Source: a virus. From it: 29,419 nucleotides of DNA. The notes under the pieces were generated by a model. That model did not search any database. It had not been told where the DNA came from and worked only from the letters and a program-made list of their open reading frames with translations. Location of the stretch: IMG/VR virus record IMGVR_UViG_3300037175_000339, positions 1-29,419 of that record; one strand, 5' to 3'. How positions within the stretch are numbered: the stretch's first letter is position 1; the number at the start of each line of letters is the position of its first letter. Both the position numbers and the translations under genes were made by a program. Shown one piece after another: positions 17,372-19,607 of this stretch.

Positions 17372-17682
17372 GCCGCACCGCCCTTGGCCAGAAAGCATTC
17401 AGTGCAGATCACGGGATTCTTGCCAGCCGCGATGATCCGCTGGCCGCTCGGCGCAATCCAGACTTCCTGCGAGCAGACGCCGCAGGTTGTTTTCGCTGAG
17501 CCCGTAATCCTGGACTGCATGTCGGCAGAGAAGCGCACTGGGTAACAAATGACAGGGCATTCGGAGGCGATGATGTCGGCTTCGGGGTGTACCTCGACTT
17601 CCAGCTTGCGGTCGAGTCCGAGGGCCTTCCCAAGATTAATGCGGAACGGTGCGAAGGTTTTCTCTACGCAGTCGGCGCTCAT
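17368..17682 (-). CDS. Zinc-knuckle early protein
   Basis: This 104-residue protein has a beta-rich first half ('LEVEVHPEADIIASECPVIC') and a C-terminal zinc ribbon: 'TTCGVCSQEVWIAPSGQR' and 'NPVICTECFLAKGG'. Note that 'CTECFLAKGG' resembles 'CPKCLAAKGG' in the plus-strand miniprotein at 19684-19845, so the two may share a small zinc module. Coupled by ATGA on both sides. Confidence 0.72.
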   Translation of the reverse strand: MSADCVEKTFAPFRINLGKALGLDRKLEVEVHPEADIIASECPVICYPVRFSADMQSRITGSAKTTCGVCSQEVWIAPSGQRIIAAGKNPVICTECFLAKGGAA

Positions 17683-17936
17683 AGAGCACCTTCCGCTCTG
17701 GTAATCGCCTGCTCGGCGACCAGCCCGAGAATCCGGACCTTCAGTAGCAGCGCGCCGTCGAGATCCGGAACGGCGCGGAGAAGCAGAACGAGTTCCCTGG
17801 TGCGCAGGGCGACATCGTAAAGCTCAAGCGCCGCCAGTTTCAGGCTCTGCACGGTGGGACAATTGGGTTGGGCTGGAGGGGTTTCGGGCGGGAGTTGTAC
17901 TTGTTCGATCGAAGGCGTTCGGTTTTCGGTGATCAC
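17679..17936 (-). CDS. First gene of the early cassette, unknown
   Basis: This 85-residue protein starts at a GTG (17936). A proline- and glutamine-rich opening ('MITENRTPSIEQVQLPPETP') is followed by a helical body ('LAALELYDVALRTRELVLLL', 'LLLKVRILGLVAEQAITRAE'). Its ribosome site (GGGAG) lies in the loop, and its start codon in the 3' arm, of the hairpin at 17934-17958. As the promoter-proximal gene of a coupled series, its translation could set expression of the genes that follow. Confidence 0.65.
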   Translation of the reverse strand: MITENRTPSIEQVQLPPETPPAQPNCPTVQSLKLAALELYDVALRTRELVLLLRAVPDLDGALLLKVRILGLVAEQAITRAEGAL

Positions 17937-17958
17937 TGGATTCTCCCAAAGTCCAGTG
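17934..17958 (-). promoter_or_regulatory. Hairpin holding ribosome site and start codon of the first early gene
   Basis: On the minus strand the arms CACTGGA and TCCAGTG pair perfectly (7 bp) around an 11-base loop containing GGGAG. The last three bases of the 3' arm are the GTG start at 17936. The geometry would hide the start codon until the helix is opened. Confidence 0.55.
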
Positions 17959-17977
17959 CCGGTACCGAAATTTGAGA

Positions 17978-18008
17978 AGAGGCTCTTCGCTTAGCAGGTT
18001 AGAGGCTC
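17978..18008. repeat. Direct repeat AGAGGCTC beside the attP candidate
   Basis: AGAGGCTC is found at 17978-17985 and at 18001-18008. The similarity continues more loosely (TTCGCTTAGCAGG versus GCCTTAGAAGG), so about 20 bases look tandemly duplicated, with the second copy entering the tRNA-like segment. These are candidates for integrase arm or core sites. Confidence 0.5.
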
Positions 18009-18010
18009 GC

Positions 18011-18050
18011 CTTAGAAGGCAGATGCTCTATCCAACTGAGCTACGCTCCC
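18011..18050 (-). other. 5' half of tRNA-Arg(TCT): probable attP core
   Basis: The minus strand from 18050 reads as a standard tRNA start: acceptor GGGAGCG, TA, D-stem GCTC with loop AGTTGGATA and GAGC, then A, stem TCTGC and anticodon loop CTTCTAA (anticodon TCT, Arg). After the loop the match stops: no 3' anticodon arm, T-arm or CGCTCCC acceptor strand follows. A truncated tRNA beside a tyrosine recombinase gene is the usual sign of an attachment site. The segment also supplies the TAG stop of the upstream gene (18041-18043). Confidence 0.75.
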
Positions 18051-18463
18051 GCAGAGGTTCCCGCGACAACAGAAGAGGCACTATCCAAAATCGGTCCAAC
18101 ACTGGCGCGTTTTTTGCTCGGCCCTGATAAGTTGGGCTCTGCGGCCATGGCGCTCGCTTTGAGCGCGAGGTTCTTGACGCGTGTTGCACGGGCTCTCTTT
18201 GCAAACTCGCAAAGCTGCTCATGCGTGTATTTTGCCGCCCGCGCCGGGCCACCAACCAGACCGGCCTTGCGCTTCGGCGTCATTTCTTTTACCACCACCG
18301 GCCTAGGGCGTCTTTTGCTTGAACGGAGAAATTGGGTGCGGTCCCAGTTCGGGCTTCTGCATTTATTGCTCGCACACTTCAAGGGCGGCGCCGACTTGTG
18401 CGGGTGCCAGGTGTATCCGCAGACCAAGCAAGTGCGAACCGGAAGCTGAACGTCTTCGGCCAT
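18041..18463 (-). CDS. Zinc-site basic protein ending in the attP candidate
   Basis: From the ATG at 18463 the product has 140 residues. The N-terminal part carries a zinc element ('RTCLVCGYTWHPHKSAPPLK', 'CASNKCRSPNWDR': Cys-x2-Cys, His, then Cys-x4-Cys). A very basic middle ('RSSKRRPRPVVVKEMTPKRK') and a helical part ('KYTHEQLCEFAKRARATRVK') follow. It could bind DNA or RNA and, being next to integrase and attP, might be a recombination accessory. The last codons and stop lie within the tRNA-derived segment, so integration would change its C-terminus. Confidence 0.68.
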   Translation of the reverse strand: MAEDVQLPVRTCLVCGYTWHPHKSAPPLKCASNKCRSPNWDRTQFLRSSKRRPRPVVVKEMTPKRKAGLVGGPARAAKYTHEQLCEFAKRARATRVKNLALKASAMAAEPNLSGPSKKRASVGPILDSASSVVAGTSAGA

Positions 18464-18524
18464 AGCAGCCCCAGTTGTACAGCGCAACTTCGTTCTTGTC
18501 AAGACTTGTTTTTCCGCGCGAGTC

Positions 18525-19607
18525 TTACAAATTCCCGGCGATAGAGCTTCTTTCGTCCGCCGCAACCGATGCCGGAGGCTTCTTTTCCAGCTTCAGTTCG
18601 AGCTTCGCAGTGGCTTCGGACTTCGGCCTCATGCGGATGTGCGAGTAGCGTTTCTTCATCCGCGAGCTGATCGCGTGACCGGCCATCTCCTCGATGGTCT
18701 GCTCGCTCACCTCCGGATCTTCCATCAGTTTTGTCAGGCAGTGGTGGCGCAGGTCGTACATGCGCAGCGTCGGCATCCCGGCCTTCGCGCGCAGGCTTCC
18801 CCAGGCTTTCTTCCACGAGCCCATCGGCTTCCATGGGTCGTACGGCGTCGACCGCGCCCGGCCCGGCAACAGGAAGTGCTCAGGATCGGGCTCCAATTTG
18901 CGCCGCCGGATGATTTTGAAGTATCGCTTCAATAGTTGTCCTGCCGCCCACTGCGACGAGGCGTTGAGCGGCACGATGCGTTCGCGGTGTCCGTTCTTCA
19001 GGCCATCGCGCACCCGCAAAGTTCCCATCGGCGCGCCGGCGCACTCGCCCAGGGTAATGTCGTTGACGTGCAGATGCGAGATCTCAGATGGACCCGCCGT
19101 GGTCGTCGCTGTCAGGATCGAGCAGAGATATGCCACGCGCCAGCGGGGCTCGGTTGAGGCGATCTCAAACAGGAGCTGCTCGGCCGAGGGCTCCATCGCC
19201 TGGCCCACCGTCGGCGCGCCTACCTTCAGTGGCTGGTAGAATTTTGCCACTTCGTTCCACAGTCCGGCACGGGCAAGGATCTGTTTGACCGTGTTCAGTT
19301 CATGATTGATGCAGTTTGGTCCAGCCGTTTCCGAGCGCTCGGCGACGTAGGCCTGCAGGTGTCCCGCGTGGATCTCATCGAGCCGCAACTCGCCGAAGAA
19401 CCTATCCAGCATCCGGATGTAGTACTCGTAATCGGTGAACGTCTTGTGCGCGATCGCCGTCTCATGTTCCTTGAGCCAGATGGGCGCGGCCTCGCCGAAC
19501 TGCATGCGGCCAAGCACCAGCGGTTCGCGGATGCGGTCGAGGAGTTCGATGCAGGCGGGGCAGTCATGGTGATTTGCGGTGTGGAGGAGCACTGGACGAA
19601 GTTGCAT
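18525..19607 (-). CDS. int: Tyrosine recombinase / phage integrase with atypical active site
   Basis: This 360-residue protein has an N-terminal segment with a possible zinc site ('HHDCPAC'), a SAM-like core-binding domain (about 37-125) and a catalytic domain (about 140-325). Visible catalytic positions are the beta-hairpin Lys204 ('DGLKNGHRERIVPL'), Arg287 in 'MYDLRHH', His311 in 'EEMAGHAISSR' and the nucleophile Tyr321 in 'KKRYSHIR'. The first catalytic Arg, normally in 'TGLRxxE', is replaced ('TTTAGPSEISHL', Gly172 or Pro173), and the His of HxxR is Tyr284. It is encoded divergently from the plus-strand gene at 19684 and lies 475 bases from the tRNA-type attP. Confidence 0.9.
   Translation of the reverse strand: MQLRPVLLHTANHHDCPACIELLDRIREPLVLGRMQFGEAAPIWLKEHETAIAHKTFTDYEYYIRMLDRFFGELRLDEIHAGHLQAYVAERSETAGPNCINHELNTVKQILARAGLWNEVAKFYQPLKVGAPTVGQAMEPSAEQLLFEIASTEPRWRVAYLCSILTATTTAGPSEISHLHVNDITLGECAGAPMGTLRVRDGLKNGHRERIVPLNASSQWAAGQLLKRYFKIIRRRKLEPDPEHFLLPGRARSTPYDPWKPMGSWKKAWGSLRAKAGMPTLRMYDLRHHCLTKLMEDPEVSEQTIEEMAGHAISSRMKKRYSHIRMRPKSEATAKLELKLEKKPPASVAADERSSIAGNL

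Follow-up and report, generated by a model that had tools for sequence, protein, structure and literature searches.

Positions 18011 to 18050 of this viral DNA, read on the minus strand, are very probably the tRNA part of a functional phage attachment site (attP), by which a temperate tailed phage of Acidobacteriota integrates and restores a tRNA-Arg(TCT) transcribed from a phage promoter. The window, that is, the whole stretch of DNA analysed, is an entire IMG/VR virus record of 29,419 bp. The evidence consists of the parts of the site present in the sequence, their conservation in three viruses, a host gene that matches, a hybrid tRNA that is complete, and relatives integrated in that tRNA gene or an analogous one. 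An intact attP with a tRNA 5' part, as proposed in the preliminary description, is the interpretation with the best support, as the half lies behind an integrase, recurs in two other viruses and gives a complete hybrid. Against this explanation stand an integrase without Arg I, a fragmentary genome, a promoter -10 box without its final T and the finding of no 5'-half lysogen.

The probable attachment site and the genes around it

The following features, all on the minus strand, make up the region (L002, L003, G003 and G425 are related viruses or prophages).

17679 to 17936, minus strand: first phage gene past the P' arm, 85 aa, with a similar ORF, by inspection, beside the tRNA in the G003 prophage
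17934 to 17958, minus strand: P'-side inverted repeat CACTGGA..GGGAGA..TCCAGTG, enclosing the Shine-Dalgarno sequence and GTG start of the first early gene
17976 to 17988, minus strand: candidate P'-arm palindrome GAAGAGCCTCTTC, 13 bp, overlapping one copy of AGAGGCTC
18011 to 18018, minus strand: putative strand-exchange core CTTCTAAG (anticodon loop plus 1 nt), where host identity ends and the 47-bp repeat of G003 begins
18011 to 18050, minus strand: tRNA-Arg(TCT) 5' half, nt 1 to the anticodon loop, an exact 40-mer and the proposed tRNA part of attP
18041 to 18463, minus strand: zinc-ribbon-like small ORF, 140 aa, with homologues at the same place in L002 and G425
18071 to 18105, minus strand: candidate P-arm sites, CCAGTGTTGGACC at 18105-18093 and AGTGCCTCTTCT at 18082-18071, conserved with L002
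18474 to 18502, minus strand: promoter-like TTGACA-N17-TACAAC between integrase and half, a putative promoter for both the small ORF and the tRNA once restored
18525 to 19607, minus strand: tyrosine-family integrase, 360 aa (PHROG_1 integrase, E 4.6e-30; Pfam Phage_int_SAM_3)

Read from 18050 to 18011, the minus strand is GGGAGCGTAGCTCAGTTGGATAGAGCATCTGCCTTCTAAG, which is tRNA-Arg(TCT) from nt 1 through the anticodon loop. The match is exact and stops there, as first described: the bases that follow (GCGAGCC...) are no longer tRNA-like and the 3' half is absent. A complete tRNA fold is not predicted here, as ARAGORN called no tRNA in the window and Rfam gave no match to it at gathering score. 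The single match in a tRNA-model search of the whole record was the half itself, at a sub-threshold 12.1 bits (cut-off 29 bits). The proposed attP contains an end fragment of its target gene (nt 1-40), and the 40-nt match is not due to chance, because elsewhere in the loci scanned the best ungapped match reaches at most 22/40. Downstream of the window half no decayed 3' half is detectable (748 of 1000 shuffles were equally good), and a search of L002 and L003 likewise gave none.

The annotation agrees with the earlier view that phage genes lie on both sides and that host DNA does not split the site. Head, portal and terminase genes are to the left of the half, and integrase, lysis and tail fibre genes to the right; no host genes were seen in the window. 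An episomal, circular or virion genome had also been suggested. The unintegrated arrangement stands; the record is a linear piece, about 29 kb out of a genome of about 41 kb, and does not demonstrate an episomal lifestyle. The virus is one of soil Acidobacteria. In a phage GenBank collection the window has no DNA relative except ordinary phage tRNA-Arg genes, and its integrase has no relative.

The integrase is encoded beside the site, with the half just downstream at a distance of 474 bp. K204, R287, H311 and Y321 (Lys, Arg II, His/Trp and Tyr) are conserved in 20/20. The canonical Arg I is missing, the residue there being Gly at position 172, which is variable across most of the integrase family. 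Integrated relatives suggest that this Arg I-less family works. Searching the PDB by sequence returned nothing, as did an integrase scan of the genome contigs. The family is common in this acidobacterial group, with mostly Gly, Ala, Ser or Met at the Arg I position (loci L161-L174 and L028-L031), and the window clade has Tyr instead of the first His. In more distant prophages of the family (L030, L033 and L176) the integrase frame enters or crosses a tRNA gene of the host (tRNA-Ser or tRNA-Pro). A second, short tyrosine recombinase, an open frame of 184-190 aa with the catalytic domain only, is found far from attP in the relatives G001 (G001:C1:27706-28185) and G002 (G002:C1:30284-30763) and is absent from the window fragment.

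Between the integrase and the half lies the only occurrence of TTGAC[AT]-N17-TA on either strand of the window (0.38 expected per window). The same promoter pattern recurs at the corresponding position in L002, L003 and G425, all suppliers of a tRNA 5' part, and is absent from the 3'-half prophage G003. A generic promoter scan did not report 18474-18502 because the -10 box lacks its final T (position 6).

The small ORF next to the promoter appears to be coding, as suggested by a dN/dS of about 0.4 between the window and L002 (dN 0.53, dS 1.30, with dS near saturation and arm sites inside the ORF). In L003 and G003 the slot holds a different, lysine/arginine-rich protein. The slot between integrase and tRNA is therefore occupied by two unrelated small-ORF types (window 18041-18463; L003 473-775; L026 2649-2930), either of which could be an excision factor or a regulator. 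In all three 5'-half phages the TAG stop of the small ORF is tRNA nt 8-10, which is weak evidence, as every frame of the tRNA half has a stop and two ORF lineages were sampled; in G425, with a whole tRNA, the small ORF stops before it. It is conceivable, if unlikely, that the half doubles as an integration sensor: RNase P would cut the completed tRNA at nt 1, the stop codon would be lost and the ORF silenced in the lysogen. The ORF would then stay on in the free phage genome, where there is no complete tRNA, and the switch could not work in G425.

Related viruses, host genes and integrated relatives

Only two other viral contigs in IMG/VR carry the exact 40-mer. These are IMGVR 3300037131_000051 (L002/L004, 41.5 kb), with an integrase 77% identical to that of the window, and IMGVR 3300050132_000227 (L003/L006/L009, 40.8 kb), with one 44-46% identical. 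In both, the half is placed as in the window, behind integrase and small ORF. Between the window and L003 identity is 40/40 inside the half but only 7/40 in the upstream and 15/40 in the downstream flank; the half has therefore apparently been kept, which fits selection for a working tRNA half. No full tRNA was found by tRNA-model search in the window or in its 41-kb relatives G001 and G002, and a match near L003 was sub-threshold (24.3 vs 29 bits). Two relatives with integrases 46-48% identical (L007 and L008) have no such half, and the target is therefore not common to all relatives.

Unrelated viruses also carry TCT 5' halves. In a sample of 120 such contigs, four had internal halves without a full tRNA, and in two of these four an unrelated PF00589 integrase ends directly upstream, about 16-32 bp from the half (L094 near 6531, L150 near 1466, reverse strand). 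L150 retains a shrunken 3' half, the only clear decayed 3' half found (6/1000 shuffles).

In an 85,000-species genome collection the 40-mer occurs in five contigs, all from Acidobacteriota MAGs. Four of the five contain a complete tRNA-Arg(TCT), so that the host gene with the same 5' half, for which the preliminary description had suggested a search, was found and in Acidobacteriota only. Each searched host genome has one exact copy of the 5' half, except Tolsyn with two; the target gene is apparently single-copy. When the phage half is joined to the 3' half of each of the four host genes, ARAGORN calls tRNA-Arg(tct), which it does not call in the phage sequence alone; in silico, recombination thus restores a complete tRNA. 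The split attL and attR forms that it had suggested looking for did not turn up: the searched genomes contain no integrated 5'-half lysogen of the window phage or its closest kin. An unrelated element in the Tolsyn MAG (L012, PJLO01000062.1; L015, PJLO01000018.1) does show, in this tRNA gene, a full tRNA at one end and a 5' fragment at the other. That element bears an integrase, appears integrated at tRNA-Arg(TCT), and has its own copy of a host-like promoter and 5' half, with a 78-bp repeat.

Relatives of the window phage are found integrated. In one of the Acidobacteriota MAGs with the 40-mer, G003 (contig CAILAZ010000268.1), a prophage of 42,036 bp, with an integrase 63% identical to that of the window at its end, is bounded by a 47-bp direct repeat, CTTCTAAGCAGAGGGTCGCAGGTTCGAGTCCTGCCGCTCCTACCATA, which starts exactly at CTTCTAAG of the same tRNA-Arg(TCT) gene. 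By its sequence it is a prophage of the conventional 3'-half type in that gene, and it has no detectable decayed 5' half (242/1000 shuffles). The G425 prophage (40.3 kb), whose integrase is about 62% identical to that of L002, has a complete tRNA-Lys(TTT) at both ends within a 78-bp repeat, and its attP therefore carries the whole tRNA. At its integrase end the order is integrase, promoter, zinc-ribbon ORF and tRNA, as in the window.

The tRNA part of the window phage ends at CTTCTAAG and that of G003 begins there, the overlap being exactly those 8 bases. Provided that both integrases share one specificity, these 8 nt would pin the exchange region. A crossover in the anticodon loop, as originally proposed, thus gains support from a prophage sharing both tRNA gene and core. 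The element said to be duplicated near the crossover, AGAGGCTC, is indeed present at 17978-17985 and 18001-18008, the former copy lying inside the palindrome GAAGAGCCTCTTC as part of a candidate arm-site motif. As a feature significant in itself the duplicate was rejected, since the same 900 bp contains other 8-bp two-copy repeats. The motif AAGAG/CTCTT is present on either side of the tRNA segment, no more than 60-90 bases away, in all five phages (10/10 arms), compared with a background of 9-15% of such stretches; the motif was picked after looking, so these numbers flatter it. L003 has a 15/17 direct repeat across the site (0/2000 shuffles). The AAGAG/CTCTT motifs are candidate arm-type integrase sites. 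The inverted repeat on the P' side has a z value of -2.4 in the window and is weak in L003 and L002. In the prophages G003 (z -5.5) and G425 (z -4.3) it is very stable and lies just past the tRNA (L024 and L179), in the path that a tRNA transcript from the host promoter would take.

In a maximum likelihood tree of the integrases, support is 100/98 for the pair of window and L002 (both 5' half) and 100/100 for the group that adds G003 (3' half) and G425 (whole tRNA), with L003 (5' half) next at 86/92. One supported integrase clade, as judged by sequence, therefore contains 5'-half, 3'-half and whole-tRNA attP sites sharing one anticodon-loop core, and the attP type changed within it. The simplest path would be that a whole tRNA was captured and one of its halves then lost. 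Such a path, with either half lost, suggests a route by which polarity could flip while the integrase stays unchanged. The family also supplies attachment sites and integrases for Acidobacteriota, a group with few genetic tools.

Proposed integration and alternative explanations

Under the proposed mechanism, the upstream integrase would recombine the putative attP core CTTCTAAG with its identical counterpart in the host, which lies in the anticodon loop of the tRNA-Arg(TCT) gene. Because the phage 5' half is on the integrase (P) side, one junction would read integrase, phage promoter, small ORF, and phage 5' half fused to host 3' half, giving a complete tRNA-Arg(TCT) that would be transcribed from the phage promoter, presumed active. 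At the other junction the host promoter and host 5' half would form a stump, in the order host promoter, 5' half and GCGAGCCTC, reading through the P' arm into the phage early genes. If the window phage does integrate in this way, a probably essential, apparently single-copy host tRNA would depend in the lysogen on a phage promoter, and losing or silencing that prophage end would be lethal.

Other explanations of the half are much less probable. It is very unlikely that it is what remains of a phage tRNA gene in decay, or a product of chimeric assembly, and plays no part in integration today; whole or shrinking tRNA genes do occur at such sites in related and unrelated viruses (G425 and L150), but nt 1 to the anticodon loop is 100% conserved in three viruses from different metagenomes with diverged flanks, and the window has no detectable 3' remnant. 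Similarly, we consider it very improbable that the half was kept mainly as DNA recognized by the integrase rather than for tRNA restoration. Integrases need sequence flanking the core, yet their core region is about 20-25 bp, whereas identity here extends 32 nt to one side and ends exactly at tRNA nt 1, and G003 uses the same core without the 5' half.

An intron interrupting the tRNA gene in its anticodon loop can be practically discounted. Group I introns do occur in the anticodon loops of bacterial tRNAs, but the record contains no downstream 3' exon and no match to an intron RNA family, and coding DNA comes directly after the half. In tRNA-dependent lysogeny, as in mycobacteriophage Fionnbharth, the host tRNA does not survive integration and its place is taken by a separate tRNA that the phage encodes, and phages whose tyrosine integrases target tRNA-Lys(TTT) in this manner are known (PMC10865867). 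It is a highly improbable account of the window phage, which shows none of its marks (a short core, no tRNA reconstruction and a separate phage tRNA): the shared segment is 40 nt rather than about 10 and rebuilds a complete tRNA, and since neither the window nor G001 and G002 contain a further tRNA, it is excluded as far as sequence reaches.

Comparison with known systems

Attachment sites carrying tRNA 5' parts are, as the preliminary description held, rarer than those carrying 3' parts. In Islander, 3760 islands have 3' tDNA fragments and 159 have 5' ones, so that 159/3919 are of the 5' kind (PMC4383910). Like the Islander 5' class with an anticodon-loop site (A), the window has a tyrosine-family integrase, a proposed crossover in the anticodon loop and an element that gives the 5' end of the tRNA. 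In contrast to that class, the set described here is made up of tailed-phage genomes in unintegrated form, which have a conserved putative promoter of their own and whose close relatives carry a 3' half or a whole tRNA.

The archaeal integrases of the pTN3 type use a tRNA 5' half as attB, and a promoter on the element drives the rebuilt tRNA (PMC8371274). The tRNA 5' half at the site has a counterpart in the window, and the element promoter for the rebuilt tRNA has a putative one. However, in the pTN3 type attP lies inside the integrase gene, which is split on integration, while the window integrase is intact, stops at 18525 and is separated by the small ORF from the half at 18011-18050.

For bacteria, Zhao and Williams in 2002 reportedly described a precedent for 5'-side restoration; to our knowledge, based on the literature read, mixed attP types within one integrase clade are not known for it. 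Restoration from the 5' side is called seldom met in bacteria (PMC8371274; PMC6563490), and the bacterial precedent cited in the latter is a single element, whereas the window clade has mixed attP types.

The mycobacteriophages Fionnbharth and Boilgate, one with tRNA-dependent lysogeny and the other with a 3'-half attP, resemble the window clade in that their related integrases use one tRNA gene through attP sites of different construction (PMC10865867). In that pair, a 3'-half site is set against no reconstruction, while the window clade combines 5'-half, 3'-half and whole-tRNA sites, all able to restore the gene. Given these comparisons, the site is best read as a real but rare 5'-type attP of an already known kind, in a new variant.
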